From positions 1 to 40,768 of the forward strand of contig CACYIC010000007.1 in assembly GCA_902774325.1 (NCBI GenBank): a stretch of 40,768 nt of DNA, written 5' to 3'. Of this stretch, positions 13,584-33,408 are shown in pieces. Source of the stretch: an uncultured Ruminococcus sp. Its GTDB lineage: Bacteria > Bacillota > Clostridia > Oscillospirales > Acutalibacteraceae. The translations under genes and the position numbers were made by a program. Numbering within the stretch: the stretch's first letter is position 1; each line of letters begins with the position of its first letter. The notes below the pieces were generated by a model. It was not told the DNA's origin, did no database searches, and worked only from the letters and a program-made list of their open reading frames with translations.

Positions 13584-13616
13584 AAAACCGACTTCAATTT
13601 TGCGAAGTCGGTTTTT
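13584..13616. terminator. bidirectional terminator between the LCP gene and the B12 operon
   Basis: AAAACCGACTTC (13584-13595) pairs perfectly with GAAGTCGGTTTT (13604-13615). The stop codon of the ECF fusion gene lies within it. Confidence 0.9.
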
Positions 13617-16251
13617 GTTTTACCAATCCGTATTTGATCTTTATTCTGTCGAGCTTTTCGAGCATCGGTTCGGATAAAAAGAAAAGCACAAAAAGGGTCG
13701 ATAAGGCATGGACGATATCAAGAGGTATCCCCTGGGCAAAATACAGGAAGATCGAAGCCCGGTTCAAAGGAGCGTGAACAAGTATCACTGACGCGAAATT
13801 CATTATTCCCCCATACAGCGCGAGAACGGCGATAAATCCAAACGCGCATATAACAGGGCGTTTTCTCGGAAGAACGCCTCTGCAAAAAAGCGCCCCTGCA
13901 ATAAAGCCGATCGCTCCGGCGGCGAACATCTGCCACGGAGTCCAGGGACCTTGCCCGAAATAAATATTTGAAACGAGCATAGACAGCGCTCCTGTCATGA
14001 ATCCGGTTTCGGCTCCGAAGGAAGCGCCCGCTATGATCACGACCGCGATCAGCGGTTTTATCTGCGGTAGCGCGAAGAAAGCCAGTCTGCCCGCGATCGC
14101 GAGAGAACAGAGCGCCGAGATGATCACCAGCTCCCTCGCCTTTGGCTTCCTGCCCTCAAAGATAAAAAAGAAAGGAAGCATACACTCAAGCATAACAAGC
14201 AGAGAGATGAAGATGTATTTTTGATCCTGAAGGAACGTCGTGCCGACAAAAATCGTGATCGGGACAGCTATCAAAGAAACTGTCGAGGCAATAACGGATC
14301 TTCTCGACGGCTTTTGTTTTGCGGGACGCTTATCGAAGCTGTCGGACGCCTTTACGAGCTTTGAAAAGGCAGCCGCTAACATAATAAGCGGAATGATTAC
14401 AGCCGCGAATTTCCACAAAAAGTACGGTTCGCAGGGAGGCTTGAGCTTTATTATTTCCGTACCCCAAAGCACTCCGAAAATAAGACACGCGCCGCCCGCA
14501 AAGGCAAGCACAGCCCGCCAAACCGAGGAGCTCTTTTTGCCGGACGCTGAGGATGATCGGACGCTTTCCGCGCGGGCAGCGGTATTTTGCGGATCATCAT
14601 TGAGGTCGATCGGTTTTGATTTAGGCTTTTCACCCTTGCAGCAATATATGACTTCGTCGGTCGTCACCGCGCAGTCCATTATATCCTTTGATATCCTTCG
14701 GGGGATCGTGGAATAAAAACAATTCTCCGAGAAGAAGCGGCGCGGCGGATCCTCCGCGGTGATTTCCCCTCTAAACATCATAAGACAGCGATGGGCGTGA
14801 GCCGCGACATATTCCAAATCATGGCTGACGGTTATTACCGTGACGCCGTCTTTGATAAGCGCTTCAATGACAGAAGCCAAAAGAGCCTTGTGATTTGCGT
14901 CCAAGCCCTTTGTCGGCTCGTCCAGAAGCAGGATATCGGGCTTTTGCAATAGGAGCTTCGCTAAAGCCGTCAACTGCTGTTCGCCTCCCGACAAATCAAA
15001 CGGGTGCCTGTTCATCAGCTTTTCTATTTTGCAAATACAGCTTATTTTTCTGATTTTCGCCTGCTTTTCTTCCTGCGACAGAGCGGAAGCTGTCAGCGCG
15101 TCCGAAAGCGTGCTGTGAACGGTTTTTCCGCTGAAAAGCAGAGTCGGATCCTGAGGCAGAAAAAGGATGCGACTCTCTCCCGCCTCGATTTTACCCTTGT
15201 AAGGCTTCTTCATACCGCAGATAATTGAGAGGAGCGTTGTTTTGCCCGCTCCGTTTCCTCCGATCAGCGCGATATGCTCGCCTTTTTCAACGCTGAGCTC
15301 CAGACCTGAAATAACGTCCTCGCTGTCCCTGCTGTAACGAAACCAAATGTTTTTGAGCTCTAAAGCCTTGCCTTCATATTTTCGTTTTTCTTCCGGGTAA
15401 AGAGGAAAAGGCTTTCGTTTGGAAAAGAAGTCTTTCAAAAAGCTTCTTCCCTGAGCAGCCGTCAGAGGACAGGGACTTCCGCCTTCATCAACGCTGTTCC
15501 AGATCCGCATGAAAGACGGCATCTCCGCAAACACCCGACTGCCGTCGGCTTTTAACTTTTCGGCAATATTCTCCGTGGCTTCATCAGCCGTCAGCCTGCC
15601 GTTTTCCAGCACAAAAACCCTGCTTGCTATCGGAAGGATCTCCTCAAGTCTGTGCTCGGCTATTATTACCGTGACGCCAAGCTCAAGATTGATTTTTTGG
15701 ACAAGAGAAAGAAAGCTGCCTGCCGCTATCGGATCGAGCTGCGAGGTCGGTTCGTCCAGCAGCAGCACCTCTGGTTCCATGATCATGACCGACGCAAGAT
15801 TGAGGATCTGCTTTTGTCCTCCCGAAAGCTCCTCAACGCTCCGGTCAAAATAGTCCTCTATTCCGAAAAAAGCCGCTGTTTCGGATACCCGTCTGCGGAT
15901 CATCTGATTATCGCAGCCGAGATTTTCAAGCCCAAAGGCGAGCTCATGCCATACCTTATCGGTGACCAATTGTCTCTCAACCGACTGACTGACGAATCCT
16001 ATCCTTCGGCTTTGTTCTCTCTGCGGCAAGCTGTAAATATCCTGTCCGTCCAGGAGGACGCTTCCCTCTCTTTCTCCGTGAGGAGCCGAGGATGGTTTTA
16101 AAAGCTTGAGCAAGGTGCTTTTTCCGCTGCCGGAAAAGCCGCAGAGCACGACTAATTCTCCCTGTTCAACGGAAAAAGAAATATCCGAGAGCACCGCGGA
16201 TTCGGCTTGAGGATAAGAAAAGCTCAGACCGCTAAGCGCGATTTTTTCCAT
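13594..16251 (-). CDS. ECF transporter ATPase A1-A2 tandem fused to an S-like membrane domain
   Basis: This 885-aa protein joins three ECF subunits normally made separately. ABC domain 1: Walker A GFSGSGKST (38-46), LSGGQ (142-146), LLLDEPTS (163-170). ABC domain 2: GGNGAGKTT (331-339), LSGGEQ (420-425), LLLDEPTKGLD (441-451). After a polar linker (about 540-587) come two spans and then a membrane region (about 665-870) with an S-component-like core: ARELVIISALCSLAIAGRLA, IKPLIAVVIIAGASFGAETG and GPWTPWQMFAAGAIGF. It should power vitamin uptake with the T subunit encoded just upstream (28-nt overlap). The cobalamin riboswitch at the operon head makes B12 the likely substrate. It is the last gene of the operon. 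Confidence 0.9.
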   Translation of the reverse strand: MEKIALSGLSFSYPQAESAVLSDISFSVEQGELVVLCGFSGSGKSTLLKLLKPSSAPHGEREGSVLLDGQDIYSLPQREQSRRIGFVSQSVERQLVTDKVWHELAFGLENLGCDNQMIRRRVSETAAFFGIEDYFDRSVEELSGGQKQILNLASVMIMEPEVLLLDEPTSQLDPIAAGSFLSLVQKINLELGVTVIIAEHRLEEILPIASRVFVLENGRLTADEATENIAEKLKADGSRVFAEMPSFMRIWNSVDEGGSPCPLTAAQGRSFLKDFFSKRKPFPLYPEEKRKYEGKALELKNIWFRYSRDSEDVISGLELSVEKGEHIALIGGNGAGKTTLLSIICGMKKPYKGKIEAGESRILFLPQDPTLLFSGKTVHSTLSDALTASALSQEEKQAKIRKISCICKIEKLMNRHPFDLSGGEQQLTALAKLLLQKPDILLLDEPTKGLDANHKALLASVIEALIKDGVTVITVSHDLEYVAAHAHRCLMMFRGEITAEDPPRRFFSENCFYSTIPRRISKDIMDCAVTTDEVIYCCKGEKPKSKPIDLNDDPQNTAARAESVRSSSASGKKSSSVWRAVLAFAGGACLIFGVLWGTEIIKLKPPCEPYFLWKFAAVIIPLIMLAAAFSKLVKASDSFDKRPAKQKPSRRSVIASTVSLIAVPITIFVGTTFLQDQKYIFISLLVMLECMLPFFFIFEGRKPKARELVIISALCSLAIAGRLAFFALPQIKPLIAVVIIAGASFGAETGFMTGALSMLVSNIYFGQGPWTPWQMFAAGAIGFIAGALFCRGVLPRKRPVICAFGFIAVLALYGGIMNFASVILVHAPLNRASIFLYFAQGIPLDIVHALSTLFVLFFLSEPMLEKLDRIKIKYGLVKQKPTSQN

Positions 16252-17108
16252 ATAAGTCCCTCCTCGGCACTGTAAGCCAACGGCAGCAGCACCAGAATCA
16301 AGGTCAAAACATATAAAGCGAGTGAAAAAGGCGACAGCAGCTCGCCCTTGACTGACGGAAAGTAGCGGAAGTGGCAGAGCCTTGTGATCCTGAGTACGAC
16401 TACCGCCGAGGATAATGAGATTATCAGGCTCATCAACACAAAATCGGCTGCGCGGAAGCGATATTTTGCGTAAGCCGTTCTTCCCTTTAAGCCGTAGCCT
16501 CTGCCCTTCATTGAATCCGCTGTTTCAATTGAGCCTTCAAGAAATCGGGAAATCACCATCGAAAAGCATTTTACAGACGACGTCGCTTTTGATATCACCC
16601 CTGCCTCTTTGCTCTCTCCTATTCCGTTTACCGCTCTCGCTTCTCTGTATTTAGCAGAAAAGCGCGGGATAAAGCGCAGCGTCATGCTGATTATCAGGCT
16701 GAGCGACGGCGAAATACGCCCGAAAAGATAGATGAGCTTATCGGAGGTCATGATTTCATTCAAAAAAGAGAACCACAGCATGACAGTACTTATCATAAAC
16801 CCCGAGGCGACGCCGTAAAGAAGCGCTTCAAGGGTGACGGGATTGCCCCACGGAAGATAAAACATAAAGGTCATTCCCTCATGGTTTATCAGCGGATTGA
16901 TAACGGCTATCAACGCGGTCATCGGAAGCGAAAACCTGAACAGAAACGCAATAGTTTTCTTTTTATTATAGAACAAGCAGTTTGCCGCAGCGCCCGCGTA
17001 AGCCAGAATTATAAAAACAGGCTGATTGATCGTCATAGACAGGGCGATGACGGCAAAGAAGAATAAAAATTCGGTTAATGGGTTTAGCTTATAAAACGCG
17101 TCCTTCAT
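16224..17108 (-). CDS. ecfT: ECF transporter transmembrane (T) component
   Basis: The 294-aa membrane protein begins MKDAFYKLNPLTEFLFFFAV, the usual EcfT opening (HP.TKL analogue). It has about five or six spans and cytoplasmic coupling helices containing RFIPRFSAKYREARAVNG and the Ala-Arg-Gly-like motif SMKGRGYGLKGR, through which T components grip the two ATPases. It lies 10 nt below the membrane-anchored DUF4430 gene and overlaps the ATPase/S fusion gene, so all are co-expressed. Its position in a riboswitch-controlled operon suggests a dedicated rather than a shared T unit. Confidence 0.9.
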   Translation of the reverse strand: MKDAFYKLNPLTEFLFFFAVIALSMTINQPVFIILAYAGAAANCLFYNKKKTIAFLFRFSLPMTALIAVINPLINHEGMTFMFYLPWGNPVTLEALLYGVASGFMISTVMLWFSFLNEIMTSDKLIYLFGRISPSLSLIISMTLRFIPRFSAKYREARAVNGIGESKEAGVISKATSSVKCFSMVISRFLEGSIETADSMKGRGYGLKGRTAYAKYRFRAADFVLMSLIISLSSAVVVLRITRLCHFRYFPSVKGELLSPFSLALYVLTLILVLLPLAYSAEEGLIWKKSRLAV

Positions 17109-17118
17109 TTTCCACCTG

Positions 17119-17916
17119 CTATGATACGAAGCCCGTATCGCCCATCACGCACGAATACCGGAAGCTGACGTTATCTCCGTCCTTCGGAAACGCTTTTGAT
17201 ACGCCGTAATTCATGAATTCGTCATTAATAAAATATGTCCAGCCCGAGTTAGGACCGCAGTCGAACTCGTAGAGATTGTTTATCCCGCTTATATATGCCG
17301 ACTGATATATCGGCGTCCACTCGGATTCGAGGTGTATTCCGTTATCCCTGCATACCCGCTGAAGAATATCAAAGACCGATTCTCCGTTATCAAAGGAAAC
17401 GGCGGTCGTAGGATATATCAGACCGTCGGCGGGAACAAGCTCACGCTTATCCTCGTCAAGCTCGTCCAAATGATTCAGCACCGTCGAGCAGGAGATCGAA
17501 AAATAACAAACAGCCTTTTTGGGTGATGTTTTCTCTTCTCTTTTCTCGGTAGTCTTGGGCTGAGTCGATGGCTTAGGTTCGGTTTTCTTCTCCGTAGCCG
17601 TGGTGCTTTGTGCTGAGTATGAAGGCTGAACGGCGGAGGATGCTTCCGCCCTGCTTTCCGATACCGTTTTGGTTTGCGGAACGGTTGTCGCGGCCGGCTC
17701 GGAGACTTTAGCCGCCGCAGTGCCTAAGGTGCTTTCGATCGTCGTTTGGCTTTGAACGGCAGAGGTCAAAACAGAGACAGTTGATTCAACCACGGCTTGC
17801 TTGTTGTTATTTATCGAACCGCCGCTGATAAAAGCGATCACCAAAGCGGCGGCGACGGCAAGCGAGGCGATAATTATCCATTTGTATTTTTTTATAAACG
17901 AGAATAAATCTTTCAT
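17119..17916 (-). CDS. membrane-anchored DUF4430 (transcobalamin C-terminal-like) protein
   Basis: From the ATG at 17916, which overlaps the upstream TGA in TGATG, it encodes 265 aa. Residues 13-31 are a signal anchor, 40-132 a Ser/Thr/Ala/Lys-rich stalk, and 135-258 a DUF4430 domain (SFDNGESVFDILQRVCRDNG, YISGINNLYEFDCGPNSGWT, YFINDEF). DUF4430 is the beta domain that closes over B12 in mammalian transcobalamin and intrinsic factor. Four cysteines (137, 143, 189, 220) and a fifth at 256 fall in or next to it. Tethered beside the ECF transporter, it probably receives or presents cobalamin; this role is inferred from domain and operon. Confidence 0.85.
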   Translation of the reverse strand: MKDLFSFIKKYKWIIIASLAVAAALVIAFISGGSINNNKQAVVESTVSVLTSAVQSQTTIESTLGTAAAKVSEPAATTVPQTKTVSESRAEASSAVQPSYSAQSTTATEKKTEPKPSTQPKTTEKREEKTSPKKAVCYFSISCSTVLNHLDELDEDKRELVPADGLIYPTTAVSFDNGESVFDILQRVCRDNGIHLESEWTPIYQSAYISGINNLYEFDCGPNSGWTYFINDEFMNYGVSKAFPKDGDNVSFRYSCVMGDTGFVS

Positions 17917-19079
17917 CAATAGCCCTCATAACCGGCTGCTTTTTTCTGGGTATCTGTAGCGTCGTTTATATCTATTTTACCGCTGCGGTTGACGTCCGCG
18001 ATCTTCGTTGCTCTCAGGTTCAACTCAACCAGTCTCGCGACCTGCTTTTGTATCAGGGTCGCGTCGTTGATATTTACTCTTCCGTCAAAATTAACATCAT
18101 AAGGCAGCAGCAGGTCGCACATATCATAAAGAGAGGTCTTACCCGACGTCAGCCTTTGATACGATACCAGAGCATAATAACCCTGCTCGGTCGCCATTTG
18201 GTTAAAGCCCTCGCCCTTGAGATGCTCAAAGCCGTTTTCCGTGGAAAATGACATCAAACCGTCTATCGGGGAATTGCCTTTTTTCAGAAATCTTTCGTCG
18301 CTTTCGCAGTTTACGCCGATCGAGCCCAGAGCGACTATCACCTGAGCGCAGCTCTCGGGAGTATCCTCTCCGTAGGTGTTGAAGCTTCCGTTTTCAAGCT
18401 GCTTTTCGGAAAGAACAGCAAGCGCCTTTTCGATTGCCTGCCTGACCTCCGGCTTAGATGTATACGGCGCGAGAGCCTGAACAGCCATAGCCGTCATATC
18501 GGGGTCGGCTCCGACTCCGTTTATATCCCAGCCGCCGCCCTCGGATTGAGCGTCAAGGATATCGCCGATCAGCAGATCTCTTGTAGTGAGCTCTTTTGCC
18601 TTTGGGTTTGAGGGGATCTCATATTGAAGCGAATCAAGAGCGATTAGGCTCCAGACCGAGCCGTTAAAGCCCTGCTTTCTCACAAAGCTCAGGTCCGCGA
18701 TAGGCTCAAGAAGATTCCGTCCAGCGACAATTTCGGGATTTTTGCCGATCGCCGTGAGCGCAAGCGCGACCCTGACGTTCTCTGTTACCTTGCTGCGGTG
18801 AAGATACGCCGAGTTTTTGCCTTTTACATATTTCTCGACATCTTTATAATAAGCTTCTGCTGTTTTTTCATCCAGGCAGCCGCCGCGGGCAAGCCCCATT
18901 ATCAGCCAATCGCCCCCGACAGCTCCGACTCCGGGAGAGGGACAGCTTTTTAAATACGCCGTGATTTCTTCGTATTTTGAGTTTATCTCCCGCCCGTTTG
19001 CCGCCTCGGCGGTGAATCCCGTAAAAAGGATCACCGCCGAGGTTATAATTGCGAGAGCGCTAATAAACAGCCTTTTCAT
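17916..19079 (-). CDS. secreted alpha/alpha-toroid (prenyltransferase-like) protein with C-terminal dockerin
   Basis: The ATG at 19079 follows the upstream TGA by 1 nt (TGATATG), suggesting coupled translation; an upstream TTG is a poorer start. Of 387 aa, 1-26 are a signal peptide. About 35-315 are helical repeats of the squalene-cyclase/prenyltransferase toroid type: GGDWLIMGLARGG, NGSVWSLIALDSL, GGGWDINGVGADPDMTAMAV, GSFNTYGEDTPESCAQVIVA, EQGYYALVSYQRL. Residues 327-385 form a type I dockerin with two calcium loops (DVNFDGRVNINDA, DVNRSGKIDINDA). The DxDD motif of squalene-hopene cyclases is absent. The same toroid fold makes up the N-terminal domain of transcobalamin, so a cobalamin-binding role fits the riboswitch and neighbours. 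Confidence 0.85.
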   Translation of the reverse strand: MKRLFISALAIITSAVILFTGFTAEAANGREINSKYEEITAYLKSCPSPGVGAVGGDWLIMGLARGGCLDEKTAEAYYKDVEKYVKGKNSAYLHRSKVTENVRVALALTAIGKNPEIVAGRNLLEPIADLSFVRKQGFNGSVWSLIALDSLQYEIPSNPKAKELTTRDLLIGDILDAQSEGGGWDINGVGADPDMTAMAVQALAPYTSKPEVRQAIEKALAVLSEKQLENGSFNTYGEDTPESCAQVIVALGSIGVNCESDERFLKKGNSPIDGLMSFSTENGFEHLKGEGFNQMATEQGYYALVSYQRLTSGKTSLYDMCDLLLPYDVNFDGRVNINDATLIQKQVARLVELNLRATKIADVNRSGKIDINDATDTQKKAAGYEGY

Positions 19080-19080
19080 A

Positions 19081-20082
19081 TCAGGAAACAAGACCGACCG
19101 CCATCATCTGGATAATTGTCGCGTCGGAGATGTCGACCTTATTATTTCCGTCAACATCCGCGAGCTTGTCCTGAAGGGCGTTGAACGCGATGAGCTTCGC
19201 GCTCTTCATCTGGGTGAGGGTCGCGTCCGTGATATCTACCTTGCCGTCGAGATTTACGTCGCCTTTTTTGTAATCAGCCTCGTTATAGGTTACGGAAAGA
19301 GTATAAACGCTTTCCGCTACGCCCTCGGGAGAACCGGGCCACGCGCTGTTTCCTACGCCTACATAAATAACGTCTCCGGGAATGACCGGGATATCATCCG
19401 TTGTTCTGAAATACTCCTCGCTTTTCGGAGCGTATTCGTTTTTATATATCCTGACTTGGTTTGCCTTGTTTTGCGCGGTCGCGCTGATCCTTACGCTCTT
19501 TGAGCCTTCATTGAGCGTGAGGTCGTAGGAAGCCGTATCATCAGCTGTTGAGGAAGCAGCCTCGGATAAGACCGCTCCTTCCGCCTCAAGCGATTTCAAA
19601 GCCGTCGTATCATTCGGCCAGGGCGCTCCCAAATCAGCTCCAGCGTCGAGCGAATAATTCATTGACAGAACATCGCCGTTTTTCACCTCGATATAAGGCA
19701 GCGCGTTGTTGATCGACCAATCGTTTTTCAGGCACATCCAGCCTGCCCACGCGGCTCCGTCGCCTTCGCTTATGCCGTTGATACCGGCGATATAATAGTC
19801 GCCTGTCCATGCGCTGGTCTGTAAATCGAAGGGAGTTTCGGTTGCCGAAAGAGCGGCTTTCACAGCGTCAAGAGCGTTCGCTCCGAGCTCGACCTCAACA
19901 ACCTCGTCAAAAAGGACTCCTGTCCAGGGCGCGCCGTTTTCAGCCTTATAGGTGTTATTGACGACCTGAACGCGAACGAGCTTTCCGTCTTGAGCCTGAG
20001 CGCTGAGACCGAAAAGACAGAGCGATGCGAGCATTATAAATGCAAGCGTAAAGGATGTAAATTTTTTTGCGGTTTTTTTCAT
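19081..20082 (-). CDS. secreted DUF4430 (transcobalamin C-terminal-like) protein with C-terminal dockerin
   Basis: First gene of the operon, 333 aa, AGGAGG upstream. Residues 1-30 are a signal peptide ending AQA. About 36-145 are DUF4430: VEVELGANALDAVKAALSAT, DYYIAGINGISEGDGAAWAG, WMCLKNDWSINNALPYIEVK, NGDVLSMNYSL. About 185-268 are a beta-rich region (YDLTLNEGSKSVRISATAQN…VYTLSVTYNEA) resembling cadherin-like sandwiches. Residues 274-332 are a type I dockerin (GDVNLDGKVDITDATLTQMK; DVDGNNKVDISDATIIQMMA). Expression is controlled by the upstream cobalamin riboswitch and attenuator. The likely role is extracellular B12 capture, docked on a cohesin-bearing surface scaffold. Confidence 0.87.
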   Translation of the reverse strand: MKKTAKKFTSFTLAFIMLASLCLFGLSAQAQDGKLVRVQVVNNTYKAENGAPWTGVLFDEVVEVELGANALDAVKAALSATETPFDLQTSAWTGDYYIAGINGISEGDGAAWAGWMCLKNDWSINNALPYIEVKNGDVLSMNYSLDAGADLGAPWPNDTTALKSLEAEGAVLSEAASSTADDTASYDLTLNEGSKSVRISATAQNKANQVRIYKNEYAPKSEEYFRTTDDIPVIPGDVIYVGVGNSAWPGSPEGVAESVYTLSVTYNEADYKKGDVNLDGKVDITDATLTQMKSAKLIAFNALQDKLADVDGNNKVDISDATIIQMMAVGLVS

Positions 20083-20097
20083 GATTTGTTCCTCCTG

Positions 20098-20130
20098 AAA
20101 ATAAAAAATGCTTTTCTATAAAGAAAAGCA
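20098..20130 (-). terminator. attenuator terminator of the cobalamin riboswitch
   Basis: On the minus strand TGCTTTTC (20130-20123), a 6-nt loop, GAAAAGCA (20116-20109), then TTTTTTATTTT, ending just before the AGGAGG of the first gene. A second stem-loop (20138-20171, CCGCATT with AATGCGG) lies between the aptamer and this terminator and may be part of the switch. Confidence 0.8.
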
Positions 20131-20186
20131 CAACACAACTCGCCGCATTCTTTTCGAAAAAAATGCGGAGTGATTGGCTGCGCTTC

Positions 20187-20323
20187 TTCTTGTCCAAGAA
20201 TGCAAAACCAAGGCAAAGCGGCAGCGATCTGACTTATGGATGAACCAAATACAGTAATGACAGTTGCTACGGATTCTCACCGTATTCTCTATTACATTCC
20301 GAAACCGGAAAAACGCAATGCCT
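20187..20323 (-). promoter_or_regulatory. cobalamin riboswitch (compact)
   Basis: Reading the minus strand: AGGCATTGCG (20323-20314) pairs imperfectly with CGCTTTGCCT (20220-20211) as P1. The core has CGGTGAGAATCCG (20282-20270, P5/L5), AGCAACTGT (20268-20260) and the B12 box AAGTCAGATCGCTGCC (20235-20220), matching the known consensus. Downstream, TTCTTGGACAAGAA (20200-20187) is a hairpin whose GGA can pair with the UCC of L5, the regulatory kissing loop. The short core suggests the compact class II type. Bound B12 is expected to favour termination at 20098-20130. Confidence 0.9.
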
Positions 20324-20333
20324 GAAAATATTC

Positions 20334-21539: not shown

Positions 21540-21595
21540 TGATTAATTCACAAGAATGGGATCATAGAATAAGATGATACAGCAAGGTGATAGAA

Positions 21596-21880
21596 ATGAA
21601 GCTCAGATTCCCTCTTTGGACTCTGCCGCTCGGAAAAAGCGGCATTATAAGTTCCGTAAACTCGGAAAGCGCGACAGCCGAACGAATCCGCAATCTCGGA
21701 TTGACCGAAGGAGCCGGAGTTCGGGCGGTATTCTTCGCGCCCTTTGGCGATCCGCGCGCCTACGAGGTGAACAGAAGCGTCGTCGCCCTTCGCCGTAAGC
21801 AGGCGTCGGAAATAATAGTTGAAACGGAGGAGGAAGATGGAGAAAAACAATTTCAGGGTCATGCTGGCGGGGAATCCTAA
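21596..21880 (+). CDS. feoA: ferrous iron transport protein FeoA
   Basis: A 94-aa SH3-like protein starting MKLRFPLWTLPLGKSGIISS, with the typical ESATAERIRNLGLTEGAGVR and a later YEVNRSVVALRRKQASEIIV. FeoA works with FeoB in Fe(II) uptake. AAGGTGA precedes the ATG at 21596. The frame runs 44 nt into feoB, adding an acidic tail (EEEDGEKQFQGHAGGES) that is unusual for FeoA, generally about 75 residues. The overlap implies tight co-expression. Confidence 0.92.
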   Translation: MKLRFPLWTLPLGKSGIISSVNSESATAERIRNLGLTEGAGVRAVFFAPFGDPRAYEVNRSVVALRRKQASEIIVETEEEDGEKQFQGHAGGES

Positions 21881-23705
21881 CGTCGGAAAAAGCACTTTAT
21901 TTAATCTGCTGACCCGAAAGAATCAGCATACCGGGAACTGGACAGGGAAAACCGTCGATTTCTCAACGGGGCTTTTTACCTATAACGGCAGATCGTACAG
22001 CCTTACCGATCTGCCCGGCGCCTATTCCCTGCTTTCGTTTTCCCCCGAGGAAGCGGTCACACGTGATCACTTATTATCCGAGAGCTCCGACTGCGTTATA
22101 ATCGTGCTAGACGCGACCGCTGTTGAGCGCAACCTGCGATTCGCTCTCGAGGTGCTGTCCGTGAATCAAAACGCTGTGATCTGTCTGAATATGACGGACG
22201 AGTGCGAGAAAAACGGGATATTCATAGACAGCGAAAAAATGAGCGCAGCTCTCGGCGTTTCTGTAGTAAAGACAAGCGCGGCAGGAAAAAAGGGTATCGC
22301 TCTCCTGTTAAAAGAGGTGGAGGCGGTTTGCGAGGGAAACAAAAAGCCTGAGTCGGCAGAGCTGAGCCTGATTGACCTTTCAACAGCCGACAGCCGCTCA
22401 AGCGCGGTTTCCTTGCTTACTCAAATCAGTAAAAGAATAATAAAAGACTGCGTTACAATAAAGAGCGACCGCAGAAACGAGAGCCAGCAAAGGCTTGATA
22501 AGCTGCTCACCTCAAAGAGCTTCGGGATACCCGCAATGATGCTTTTGACAGCTCTGCTATTCTGGATAACCCTTGTCGGGGCAAATTATCCGAGCGAATG
22601 GCTTAGCGCCCTTTTTTCCTTGATCAAAAGCGGGCTAAACGAGCTGATGAGCCTGCTCAAAGCGCCCGAGTTTTTAAGGGGTCTTTTGATCGACGGAGTA
22701 TATACGACCCTGAGCTGGGTCGTTTCGGTGATGCTTCCTCCCATGGCTATCTTTTTTCCTCTCTTTGCGCTTATAGAGGAATCGGGCTATTTGCCGAGGA
22801 TCGCCTTTAATGCCGACAGCGCCTTTGCTAAATGCGGAGTTAACGGAAAGCAGTGCCTGACTATGATGATGGGTATCGGCTGCAATGCCTGCGGAGTCGA
22901 GGGCTGTCGTATCATTCACGGAAGAAAGGAAAGATTGATAGCGATCCTGACCAACACCTTCATGCCCTGTAATGGAAGGTTTCCGATACTTATTGCGCTG
23001 ATCGCCGTTTTCTTTTCCGGCGGCGCCGAGCCTAAAAGCACCTTGCTGTCGGTGCTGATCCTTATGGGAATAACGACGCTGTGCGTAGCGATGACGCTGC
23101 TGGTTTCAAAGCTTCTGTCGAGGATGATCGGCGGAGATTCATCATCCGGATTCATTCTCGAGCTTCCCCCCTACAGAAAACCTAGAATAATAAAAACTAT
23201 CGTCAATTCCCTTAGAGATAAAGCGCTAAAGGTGCTTGGCAGAGCGATGCTTGTAGCGGCTCCGGCGGGAGCTGTTATCTGGCTGACGGCAAATATCAGC
23301 ATCAACGGCAGCGCGGTTTTAGACCACTGCGTCGGTTTTCTTGAGCCGTTCGGAAAAGCGATCGGTGTTGACGGAGTTATTCTCATAGCCTTTATCCTTG
23401 GCTTCCCCGCGAATGAAACGGTCATTCCCGCCATGCTCATGGCTTATACTCAGAGCGGTACGCTCACCGATTATTCGGGCTACGGGCAGCTTTCAGAGCT
23501 GTTTTCGGCAAACGGCTGGACTGCGCTGACTGCCGTTTGCGTTATGATAATAACGGTTTTTCACTTCCCCTGCTCAACGACCTGTCTTACCATCCGCAAG
23601 GAAACAAGGAGCTTGAAATGGACTCTTGCCGCCTTTTTGCTTCCTACAGCCTTGGGTATTCTGCTCTGCGCGGTTATTAATTGTCTTTATACGATATTTG
23701 CATAG
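21837..23705 (+). CDS. feoB: ferrous iron transport protein FeoB
   Basis: From the ATG at 21837 (GGAGGAGG upstream) it encodes 622 aa. The N-terminal GTPase has G1 GNPNVGKST (12-20), TGNWTGKTVD, G3 DLPGAYSL and G4 NMTD. The membrane part has two gate-like regions: IGCNACGVEGCRIIHGRKER with TNTFMPCNGRFPILIAL, and LGFPANETVIPAMLMAY. FeoB imports Fe(II) across the membrane with a GTPase switch. It is shorter than E. coli FeoB and the helical spacer domain is brief. No Fur site was identified with confidence. Confidence 0.96.
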   Translation: MEKNNFRVMLAGNPNVGKSTLFNLLTRKNQHTGNWTGKTVDFSTGLFTYNGRSYSLTDLPGAYSLLSFSPEEAVTRDHLLSESSDCVIIVLDATAVERNLRFALEVLSVNQNAVICLNMTDECEKNGIFIDSEKMSAALGVSVVKTSAAGKKGIALLLKEVEAVCEGNKKPESAELSLIDLSTADSRSSAVSLLTQISKRIIKDCVTIKSDRRNESQQRLDKLLTSKSFGIPAMMLLTALLFWITLVGANYPSEWLSALFSLIKSGLNELMSLLKAPEFLRGLLIDGVYTTLSWVVSVMLPPMAIFFPLFALIEESGYLPRIAFNADSAFAKCGVNGKQCLTMMMGIGCNACGVEGCRIIHGRKERLIAILTNTFMPCNGRFPILIALIAVFFSGGAEPKSTLLSVLILMGITTLCVAMTLLVSKLLSRMIGGDSSSGFILELPPYRKPRIIKTIVNSLRDKALKVLGRAMLVAAPAGAVIWLTANISINGSAVLDHCVGFLEPFGKAIGVDGVILIAFILGFPANETVIPAMLMAYTQSGTLTDYSGYGQLSELFSANGWTALTAVCVMIITVFHFPCSTTCLTIRKETRSLKWTLAAFLLPTALGILLCAVINCLYTIFA

Positions 23706-32118: not shown

Positions 32119-33408
32119 TTATGAATTATCCGAAAGAATGATCACAGCCTTGCCCTTGCTCGGGAGCATTCCGCGAAAGATCTCGACTTTTTCTCCGTCA
32201 AGCTCGTTTTGGTAAAAGCCGTCGGGCATATCGACATTTATAAGCGCGGGACTGCTTTTGAGCGGGAAAACTCCGAGAGCTGTTTTACCTTTGAAATTGT
32301 ATGAAGCGATTATATGGCTGCCCGAATGAGAAGCTACCTTATAGGAGCCTTCGGCAAAAACGGGCTCCTTTTTAATTGCCGACAGCTTCTTGATCAGACC
32401 GCTGATATCTTTTCCGGTGTTGTAATCGACCGTGTCCTTGTCAAATAGGCTCGGCAGATGGGAAACCTCGTATTCCTGTCCCGCGTAAACAAAGGCGGTT
32501 CCCTTTTGGAAGAACATGAACGCGGTAAGACTGCGAAGCACAGCTTCATCGGGGATCAAAAAAGCGGCTCGGGTCTGATCGTGGTTTTCCAAGAAACGCA
32601 GCTTGACATAATTCGCGGGGAAAATCGTTTCCTGACGGTTTATAGCCTCAATAAATCTTTCCAAAGGCGTGCTTCCGTTCAGCACGGATACGAACTCACC
32701 GTAAACATCATAATCATAGCAAATATCAAAGGCTTGGTAGACCTCGGAATCGGACAGCGCTGTCAGACCCTGAGAACGGAGATAAGTGATAAATTCGGGC
32801 TCCACGGATTCACTGAGCCAGATGCAGCCCTCGCGGACCTTTTCAACTGCCTTGCGCGCTTCAAGCCAGAATTCGATCGGGATAAGCGGCGCGACGTCGC
32901 AGCGGAAGCCGTCGACAAGCTCCGCCCAATAGCAGAGAGTTTCGATTTGATACTTCCATAATTCTTTATTAGAATAATCGAGGTCGATTATATCAGTCCA
33001 GTCCCCTACTCTGTTTCCGAAGCTGCCGTCGGGACGGTGGAAAAACCATTCGGGATGCTCACGGCTCAGAACCGAATCCGGCGAGGTGTGATTATAGACA
33101 ACGTCAATGATGCATTTCATGTCGTGAGAGTGGATATCGTCAACCAGCTCCCTGAAATCCTCGAGCGTTCCGAACTCGGGATTGACCGCGCGGTAATCGC
33201 TGATGGCGTAGGGAGAGCCGAGCGCGCCCTTGCGGGCGATTTTGCCTATAGGATGTATCGGCATGAGATAAACGATATCCGTTCCCAGCTCTCTGATACG
33301 GTCAAGCTGAGCGCGTACAGCCTGAAAAGTGCCCTCCTCGCTGAAATTGCGCACGAAAATCTGATAAATGAGTTGGTTCCTGAGTTTGACGTCGGTATTT
33401 TTCGACAT
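32119..33408 (-). CDS. GH13 alpha-amylase-family glycoside hydrolase, cytoplasmic
   Basis: The 429-aa protein has the four GH13 regions: DVVYNH (102-107), GFRCDVA with nucleophile D171, the acid/base E200 in IWLSESVE, and FLENHDQTR with N275, H276 and D277. There is no signal peptide, so it acts inside the cell on maltodextrins, glycogen or related sugars. Length and the short C-terminal domain are close to cytosolic neopullulanase-like or alpha-glucosidase-like members, but specificity cannot be read. It lies 12 nt after the patatin gene on the same strand, which suggests one transcript. Confidence 0.92.
   Translation of the reverse strand: MSKNTDVKLRNQLIYQIFVRNFSEEGTFQAVRAQLDRIRELGTDIVYLMPIHPIGKIARKGALGSPYAISDYRAVNPEFGTLEDFRELVDDIHSHDMKCIIDVVYNHTSPDSVLSREHPEWFFHRPDGSFGNRVGDWTDIIDLDYSNKELWKYQIETLCYWAELVDGFRCDVAPLIPIEFWLEARKAVEKVREGCIWLSESVEPEFITYLRSQGLTALSDSEVYQAFDICYDYDVYGEFVSVLNGSTPLERFIEAINRQETIFPANYVKLRFLENHDQTRAAFLIPDEAVLRSLTAFMFFQKGTAFVYAGQEYEVSHLPSLFDKDTVDYNTGKDISGLIKKLSAIKKEPVFAEGSYKVASHSGSHIIASYNFKGKTALGVFPLKSSPALINVDMPDGFYQNELDGEKVEIFRGMLPSKGKAVIILSDNS

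Follow-up and report, generated by a model that had tools for sequence, protein, structure and literature searches.

A candidate split, transcobalamin-like B12 capture module beside an ECF importer in a relative of Ruminococcus bromii

It is, to our knowledge, largely open how Gram-positive gut bacteria that depend on B12 secure it in competition with systems such as BtuG, and as far as we know ECF transporters work without extracellular binding proteins. Might some of these bacteria nevertheless equip an ECF importer with capture proteins of its own? The question is raised by an operon of five genes, all on the minus strand (13594-20082), in DNA from an uncultured Ruminococcus sp. related to the gut bacterium Ruminococcus bromii. 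The window, i.e. the whole stretch analysed, spans 40,768 nt (assembly GCA_902774325.1, contig CACYIC010000007.1, positions 1-40,768 of the forward strand). A sequence-only reading had seen in this operon a complete path for B12, from capture proteins through a membrane-tethered acceptor to an ECF permease. Our analysis, itself based on sequences and models, supports this reading: the operon very probably encodes a split, transcobalamin-like and probably scaffold-tethered B12 capture module, which would feed an importer of the ECF-CbrT type under riboswitch control.

The economy of the genome gives such a system a purpose. Its one B12-binding domain above cut-off lies within a frame of 817 aa that looks like MetH, and no CbiC was found in the draft genome (91% complete). 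Since a MetH-like gene is present and corrin synthesis was not detected, the cell presumably needs to import corrinoids. In the same draft no FecCD (BtuC-type permease) scored above cut-off (weak match of 19.5 bits, cut-off 26.5). R. bromii itself is reported, in the part of the source available to us, to be unable to make B12 (PMC6231298).

The operon, its leader and its transporter

The genes are tightly packed. P0001 (19081-20082) encodes a secreted beta-like protein, P0002 (17916-19079) a secreted alpha-like protein, P0003 (17119-17916) a membrane-anchored beta-like protein, P0004 (16224-17108) an ECF T component of the CbiQ family (PF02361), and P0005 (13594-16251) a fused ABC-ABC-S protein with two ECF ATPase domains and a CbrT-like S component. 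The ATG of P0002 comes one base past the stop of P0001 (an upstream TTG would overlap P0001), P0002 and P0003 overlap in TGATG, 10 nt separate P0003 from P0004, and P0004 overlaps P0005 by 28 nt. The ribosome-binding site of P0001, AGGAGG, reads at 20091-20096 on the minus strand. At the operon end a terminator-like hairpin usable from both strands (13584-13615, listed on the minus strand) was picked up by a consensus scan that gave 23 terminator-like sites for the region, compared with 10.7 for shuffled sequence. Gene coordinates and the Rfam match described below thus bear out the five-gene block behind a cobalamin riboswitch.

This riboswitch is a short-form aptamer with a conserved core at 20203-20332 on the minus strand (RF00174, 35.4 bits against a gathering score of 31.5, E=1.7e-5). 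It is the sole Rfam match above gathering score in the window, and no second RF00174 match was found across the 2.1-Mb draft genome (91% complete). The core is conserved in an alignment of 27 sequences, window included, in which five of ten predicted pairs show at least one double-sided pair-preserving change. Between the aptamer and the ribosome-binding site the consensus scan places a terminator-like hairpin with a T-run (20108-20131, minus strand); comparable hairpins occur in 17 of 24 riboswitch leaders, this one included, versus 8 of 120 shuffled controls.

It had been proposed to check whether homologous operons co-occur with cobalamin riboswitches, and to a large extent they do. In a set of 79 genomes that takes in the window's own, 42 of 48 riboswitches lie at most 6 kb upstream, on the same strand, of a DUF4430 match, and within the genus 30 of 31 precede DUF4430 genes. 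A DNA-profile search finds a riboswitch ahead of the toroid gene in 55 of the 78 named loci analysed (none in the reversed control); this search replaced a strict sequence motif, which had given 37/78. The 78 are what is left of 80 named loci once two (L194 and L198) that had no callable toroid ORF were dropped. In 14 of the 23 loci lacking a riboswitch match the first toroid ORF begins at most 571 bp from the locus start, so that the leader may lie outside the locus. The other six of the 48 riboswitches had no DUF4430 match downstream within these limits (79 genomes, 6 kb, same strand), and a scan with stricter filters detected no riboswitch in 27 of 68 DUF4430-bearing genomes. Among the six, one (G033) sits 84 bp from a contig end and another (G069) has a DUF4430 gene by a local profile. 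The RF00174 score and the linkage to DUF4430 genes together argue for riboswitch control of the operon.

The transporter appears complete: a T component (CbiQ, 26.7 bits, Pfam cut-off 25.0), two ECF ATPases (two ABC_tran stretches in P0005) and an ECF S domain, at about 13624-14301 on the minus strand. A profile of 27 S domains matches 6FNP (CbrT) at E=1e-18, the next best at 1.8e-5, and CbrT is the nearest among solved S components. These matches favour the view that the ECF transporter is dedicated to B12. One might object that the cobalamin is merely the regulator, the substrate being another vitamin or a cobamide precursor such as cobinamide. Pfam names the S domain ECF-ribofla_trS, above cut-off, and the nearest NCBIfam families of the S-domain members are folate and riboflavin ones (the window match being below cut-off). 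In favour of cobinamide, ECF-CbrT (6FNP), with its proven B12 S component, has measured transport of cobinamide as well as of cobalamin according to the accessible part of the source (PMC5997447). But in E-value the riboflavin S component 3P5N trails 6FNP by some 13 orders of magnitude, and the folate one by more, which weakens riboflavin or folate specificity. We regard a substrate other than B12 as improbable.

Two halves of a carrier

The beta-like half is the DUF4430 domain. It occurs in P0001 at 19651-19884 (minus strand, 29.3 bits) and in P0003 at 17152-17385 (minus strand, 59.3 bits), both above the Pfam cut-off of 23.8. In P0001 it follows a signal peptide (by eye) and is itself followed by a cadherin-like sandwich (below cut-off) and a type I dockerin, whereas P0003 starts with a transmembrane stretch and an S/T/P-rich arm (both by eye). 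A DUF4430 gene stands immediately ahead of CbiQ in 49 of the 60 named loci having CbiQ; among these 49, the 7 N-termini inspected all look membrane- or lipid-anchored by eye. An automatic lipobox pattern caught 3 of 12 small DUF4430 proteins, and more of them appear lipidated by eye.

A profile built from 48 bacterial DUF4430 domains matches haptocorrin TCN1 (E=9.5e-6) and, more weakly, TCN2 (2.5e-4) and intrinsic factor (0.018), the aligned part falling each time in the C-terminal beta domain. Because a designed repeat protein, at 2.3e-4, comes between the first two, only the TCN1 match is clear of chance-like matches by score; those to TCN2 and intrinsic factor count through position and agreement. 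Taken together, the three matches speak for the kinship of DUF4430 to the transcobalamin beta domain that had been put forward. Among PDB entries this profile matches RUMGNA_00854 best (3U7Z, E=9e-12).

The alpha-like half is less distinctive. P0002 has a signal peptide (by eye), an alpha/alpha toroid at about 18120-18935 on the minus strand, modelled with pLDDT 96.4, and a C-terminal type I dockerin. The sequence-only reading took this toroid for the alpha-domain fold of transcobalamin and suggested a structure search. In that search (Foldseek) transcobalamin 7QBE ranks first (E=4.9e-5), and transcobalamin or intrinsic factor occupies ranks 1, 4, 5, 9, 11-14, 25 and 49 among the 50 matches listed. 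Yet the highest TM-score of prenyltransferase beta subunits, 0.62, equals that of transcobalamin (0.57-0.62; intrinsic factor 0.52-0.57), and kinship in sequence did not emerge: three toroid profiles gave no transcobalamin or intrinsic factor among 37, 31 and 16 PDB matches. The window domain alone had no Pfam match above cut-off (SQHop_cyclase_C at 0.17). Of the 37 family members in the alignment, 31 match Prenyltrans with E-values no higher than 1 (best 1.6e-8), and none of the 24 Pfam families to which these 37 have matches is a cobalamin-carrier family. The modelled toroid resembles transcobalamin only at the level of fold, in a way that is not exclusive to it.

What ties the two halves together is their company. 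In 76 of the 78 loci the toroid either shares one polypeptide with DUF4430 (39 loci) or lies next to it (37 loci). On the tree the fused or split state switches 10 times, with at least 6 switches forced by well supported branches, though some proteins scored as "split" may have been truncated at a contig end and the branches of two rows (L197 and L206) are very long. R. bromii fusions have the order beta-alpha, others alpha-beta. In the ORF survey of the loci, the greedy caller mis-strands some genes (e.g. in L084), so that fused proteins come out too few there. In the window the halves are encoded by separate genes, their products secreted (by eye) or anchored, as the sequence-only reading held. 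CbiQ or an ECF S gene lies downstream in 62 of 78 toroid loci; in the 16 where no ECF gene does, 8 have less than 500 bp left and 8 do not. A search of 84,980 species genomes with two short peptide patterns gave 237 encoding stretches. The model of the natural fusion of R. bromii ATCC 27255 (pLDDT 95.4, pTM 0.77) gave no whole-chain match to transcobalamin in a structure search and is thus uninformative on how alpha and beta close. Its top four matches are multi-domain chains of complement/alpha-2-macroglobulin type (rmsd near 20), with transcobalamin at ranks 10, 12-15 and 38 and intrinsic factor at 48, over about 320 columns.

Could the ECF transporter import B12 while its neighbours with toroid and DUF4430 domains share the regulon but act as adhesins, or bind glycans or peptides at the surface? 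Certain relatives are giants reaching 3972 aa, some have Ig-like or SLH domains, and the R. bromii dockerin proteins discussed in the accessible part of PMC5814915 are amylases. But a generic adhesin would not be expected to be kin to animal B12 carriers, nor to show near-constant pairing with a toroid, repeated fusion and riboswitch control. Moreover, 10 loci without toroid have a minimal form, a DUF4430 gene with a CbrT-like S gene (whose S profile matches 6FNP at 1e-23), and a riboswitch was detected in 6 of the 10. We find this alternative unlikely. Still less credible, to the point of being very hard to sustain, is an enzymatic toroid, terpene-cyclase-like or other, modifying or releasing the ligand instead of forming a binding half: its nearest solved relatives by sequence are squalene-hopene and drimenyl-diphosphate cyclases, but the protein is secreted (by eye) and constantly paired with DUF4430, the DxDD motif of class II cyclases is present in 2 of 128 toroid domain matches and absent from the window's, making a cyclase unlikely, and the C[GA]EQ thioester motif of the alpha-2-macroglobulin/complement TED domain is in none of the 128, making a complement-like TED unlikely too.

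Surface tethering and a possible path for B12

The B12 capture module would probably not be free in the medium. The type I dockerins of P0001 (19108-19266, minus strand, 27.1 bits) and P0002 (17958-18101, minus strand, 33.0 bits), with two calcium-binding repeats each by alignment, exceed the Pfam cut-off of 22.9 and end both secreted proteins. They had been overlooked in the sequence-only reading, and they change its picture of the secreted capture proteins (signal peptides by eye). Cohesins scored above cut-off at two of five places in the same genome; of three candidates scanned with hmmscan, two had 30.1 (L003) and 26.0 bits (L007) against a cut-off of 24.1, and the third (L004) had no match. 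L004 had been above cut-off in the first search. Surface anchors, of SLH type, also accompany comparable domains in both Paenibacillus proteins scanned. Given dockerins and genomic cohesins, free diffusion becomes less likely, and P0001 and P0002 are probably held on a cohesin-bearing surface scaffold.

The path might then run as follows. When B12 is scarce, the riboswitch would let transcription run past the leader terminator. The DUF4430 domain of P0001 and the toroid of P0002, hung by their dockerins on cohesin-bearing scaffolds, would close on the corrinoid from two sides like the beta and alpha domains of transcobalamin, as homology, fold and repeated fusion lead us to infer. The DUF4430 domain of P0003, on its flexible membrane-anchored arm, would take the B12 and present it to the CbrT-type S component, and the T component and fused ATPases would drive it inward, as shown for the homologous ECF-CbrT. 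A bolder version, which we think quite possible but somewhat short of probable, makes the scaffolds vitamin-scavenging platforms on which dockerin-tagged halves close round B12, an anchored half-carrier strips it from them and loads the ECF transporter, and a two-domain ancestor was shared with the vertebrate carriers.

Relation to known systems

We found no description of such a capture operon in the open-access library searched. The operon is a concrete and widespread candidate for B12 capture in the genus of R. bromii, and the fused form is carried by cultured R. bromii strains (ATCC 27255, 5AMG, YE282), so the system can be tested. If the reading is true, an ECF transporter gains dedicated extracellular capture proteins, cohesin-dockerin scaffolds extend from enzymes to nutrient capture, and bacteria have a transcobalamin-type carrier, with a bearing on the origin of human B12 carriers.

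The ECF module of Lactobacillus delbrueckii is common to several S components. ECF-CbrT of this species (6FNP; PMC5997447) is alike in S-component family, T component and two ATPases; here, by contrast, module and S component share one operon, the ATPases are fused to the S component and three extracellular proteins are added. RUMGNA_00854 (3U7Z, "putative metal binding protein") is a 101-residue chain, and the title of its record makes no tie to B12.

BtuG is not known to be related to the capture proteins of the window. As far as the consulted portion of PMC6143338 goes, BtuG of Bacteroides resembles them in that it captures B12 at the surface of a gut bacterium, before a membrane transporter takes over, but differs in having BtuB, of an outer-membrane system, as partner; the main text mentions neither Firmicutes nor Gram-positive nor DUF4430. 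In the R. bromii amylosome, too, dockerins meet surface cohesin scaffoldins in a calcium-dependent manner, although the cargo described in the available text is amylases (PMC5814915), whereas here it would be a predicted vitamin-capture module. The vertebrate carriers, transcobalamin, intrinsic factor and haptocorrin, are alike in the beta domain, by profile, and less distinctively in the toroid, for which transcobalamin is the first structural match although other toroids score alike; their one-polypeptide arrangement recurs in the 39 fused loci, while in the window the two halves are separate and each bears a dockerin.

The operon, its riboswitch and its transporter

We showed that five minus-strand genes lie tightly packed behind a cobalamin riboswitch, as the sequence-only reading had proposed. 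The genome behind the window (contig C7) is a 2.1-Mb draft with a completeness of 91%. The riboswitch (20203-20332, minus strand) matches RF00174 with 35.4 bits, for a gathering score of 31.5. Downstream come a terminator-like hairpin with a T-run (20131-20108, minus strand), an AGGAGG site and the genes themselves, which are separated by gaps of at most 10 nt or overlap by at most 28 nt; another hairpin (13584-13615) lies at the operon end. P0001 (19081-20082) and P0002 (17916-19079) both begin with a signal peptide (by eye) and both end in a type I dockerin; in between, P0001 carries DUF4430 and a cadherin-like sandwich (below cut-off), and P0002 an alpha/alpha toroid. At the N-terminus of P0003 (17119-17916) is a transmembrane stretch, from which an arm of some 100 residues rich in S, T and P leads to a terminal DUF4430 domain (stretch and arm by eye). 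P0004 (16224-17108) is a CbiQ-type T component, and P0005 (13594-16251) a fusion of two ECF ATPases and an S component. The upstream neighbour on the same strand is an EamA transporter gene, divergent from a plus-strand 97-aa ORF and a FeoB gene for ferrous iron uptake (21587-23705). Elsewhere in the window (32119-33408), an alpha-amylase-family protein with a bacterial C-terminal domain fits an R. bromii-like organism.

Related operons do co-occur with cobalamin riboswitches, a point that had been left to be checked. Across 79 genomes, the window's own included, there are 48 riboswitches in 46 genomes, and 42 of these riboswitches are followed within 6 kb by a DUF4430 match on the same strand. 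In the window's genus, probably that of R. bromii, this rises to 30 out of 31, the sole exception lying 84 bp from a contig end. No riboswitch was detected in 27 of the 68 DUF4430-bearing genomes by a scan with stricter filters. In a second set of loci, picked by toroid similarity alone (80 retained from 237), a riboswitch DNA profile matched upstream on the same strand in 55/78 toroid loci, and reversed sequence gave 0 matches. A terminator-like hairpin follows the riboswitch in 17 of the 24 leaders taken in (from the 48 riboswitches), against 8 of 120 shuffles. The short riboswitch form (27 sequences) keeps the core and shows double-sided pair-keeping changes in 5 of 10 predicted pairs. At two loci of relatives, L112 and L128, the genes behind the riboswitch encode neither DUF4430 nor a toroid, and one gene per locus matches an ABC profile; these are perhaps another B12 or cobalt system. 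Opposite-strand cobalamin riboswitch pairs, some 80 to 110 bp apart, occur in two genomes (G124:C103:3897-4372 and G115:C2:23293-23770).

The best match of a profile from 27 operon S domains is 6FNP, ECF-CbrT of Lactobacillus delbrueckii (E=1e-18). The next-best S components follow at 1.8e-5 and 3.3e-5 (3P5N, riboflavin uptake protein), and a folate S component at 0.064. Since cobalamin and cobinamide transport is demonstrated for the ECF-CbrT complex (PMC5997447), the transporter of the operon is predicted to be for B12, in agreement with the dedicated ECF transporter first suggested. At odds with this substrate, the Pfam name of the window S domain is ECF-ribofla_trS, and its NCBIfam relatives, below cut-off, are folate and riboflavin only.

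A need for B12 would fit the organism. Of four B12-binding places in the genome, one scores above cut-off, in a frame reading as MetH. CbiC was not found in the 91%-complete draft and no FecCD permease scored above cut-off, with one weak match; these absences are suggestive only, because the draft is incomplete. One study reports that R. bromii is unable to make B12 and that its methionine-synthesis genes dropped in co-culture, where the authors think B12 limiting (PMC6231298). In another, niacin is the sole vitamin R. bromii genomes are predicted to make (PMC5814915).

The two proposed halves of a transcobalamin-like carrier

The kinship between DUF4430 and the transcobalamin beta domain holds. 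A profile built from 48 bacterial DUF4430 domains, whose top match is the DUF4430 structure 3U7Z (9e-12), finds haptocorrin (TCN1) at 9.5e-6, transcobalamin (TCN2) at 2.5e-4 at best, and gastric intrinsic factor at 0.018. By themselves the last two are unconvincing, because a designed repeat protein in the same list scores 2.3e-4, but they convince by agreeing in place: in all three proteins the match falls on the C-terminal beta domain. For the animal proteins the homology has already been published: a 2014 paper places a DUF4430 domain at the C-terminal end of TCN proteins (PMC4350170).

For the proposed transcobalamin alpha-domain fold of the toroid the picture is mixed. The toroid model of P0002 (pLDDT 96.4, pTM 0.94) has transcobalamin 7QBE as its top Foldseek match (E=4.9e-5, TM 0.60), and transcobalamin or intrinsic factor make up 10 of the best 50 matches. 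Yet a farnesyltransferase beta subunit ties the best TM-score (0.62), and toroid sequence profiles found terpene cyclases and other toroids, with no transcobalamin or intrinsic factor. The toroid half may still be kin to the transcobalamin alpha domain: all but 2 of 128 toroids lack the cyclase motif, and the thioester motif is present in 0 of 128.

Pairing, fusion and attachment among relatives

Toroid and DUF4430 go together in most relatives. A toroid gene could be called in 78 loci: DUF4430 is part of the toroid polypeptide in 39 of them and is encoded by an adjacent gene in another 37. CbiQ or ECF-S genes lie downstream in 62; in 8 of the remaining 16 the sequence ends within 500 bp, and in 8 it runs further. 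R. bromii ATCC 27255, 5AMG and YE282 encode DUF4430-cadherin-like-toroid-dockerin fusions, i.e. P0001 and P0002 joined as one protein with a single dockerin, whereas other relatives follow the order of transcobalamin, toroid and then DUF4430. On a tree of 79 toroids the fused or split state changes 10 times, at least 6 of them forced by well supported branches. In a genus member (L083:3163-8280), one cluster combines two tandem toroid genes with an additional DUF4430 gene, and no riboswitch was detected. Uncultured Clostridia encode giant DUF4430 and toroid proteins of 2488 to 3972 aa (L186:571-12489, L185:196-10344, L172:2377-10194, L183:2622-10088; ends approximate), with domains repeated several times in L186. 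L191 is labelled as Alistipes (Bacteroidota), yet its fused DUF4430-toroid protein clusters with a Clostridia row, reflecting either transfer or a binning error.

The dockerins of P0001 and P0002, unmentioned in the sequence-only reading, have two calcium-loop-type repeats each, as in the other aligned dockerins of the genome (30 fetched of 55 dockerin places). Five cohesin places were found, two above cut-off. When three cohesin-candidate proteins were scanned, L003 (287 aa, by eye with a transmembrane stretch at its C-terminus) and L007 (>900 aa, which also carries a pullulanase-type X25 domain) scored above cut-off, and L004 gave no cohesin match. Attachment differs among relatives, with dockerins in the window, SLH in Paenibacillus and transmembrane or lipoprotein-like starts elsewhere. 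Both Paenibacillus proteins scanned have three SLH stretches; with their toroid(s) and DUF4430 (L195:5689-11469, L205:4906-9939) they look like wall-anchored transcobalamin-like proteins. A DUF4430 gene lies immediately 5' of CbiQ in 49 of 60 CbiQ-bearing loci, and all 7 N-termini of such proteins that were inspected look anchored (by eye).

A small form has no toroid nearby: the gene of a DUF4430 protein with a transmembrane or lipoprotein-like start (by eye) is followed by a solitary gene for a CbrT-like S component (L102, L103, L104, L105, L108, L118, L119, L121, L123, L124). The proteins have 128-167 aa (one is longer by ORF calling), the S components match 6FNP (1e-23), and 6 of the 10 loci lie behind a detected cobalamin riboswitch. 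Judging from these loci, RUMGNA_00854 (3U7Z), titled 'putative metal binding protein', may be a B12 protein.

A possible route for B12

Computation shows the anatomy, the S-component and beta-domain kinship, the regulatory linkage and the toroid-DUF4430 pairing. On the favoured reading, P0001 and P0002 probably dock on cohesins and bind B12 between their toroid and DUF4430 halves. The scaffold-held pair would then pass B12 to the membrane-held beta domain, and this to the S component, and transcription termination in the leader would depend on B12.

Among the papers listed in searches of open-access literature without preprints, we found no description of bacterial transcobalamin-type carriers, of DUF4430 in B12 uptake or of dockerin-borne vitamin capture. 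Intrinsic factor can assemble on cobalamin from its fragments, which would make a split carrier plausible. On this evidence, the parts of the operon are of already known kinds and their combination is new.
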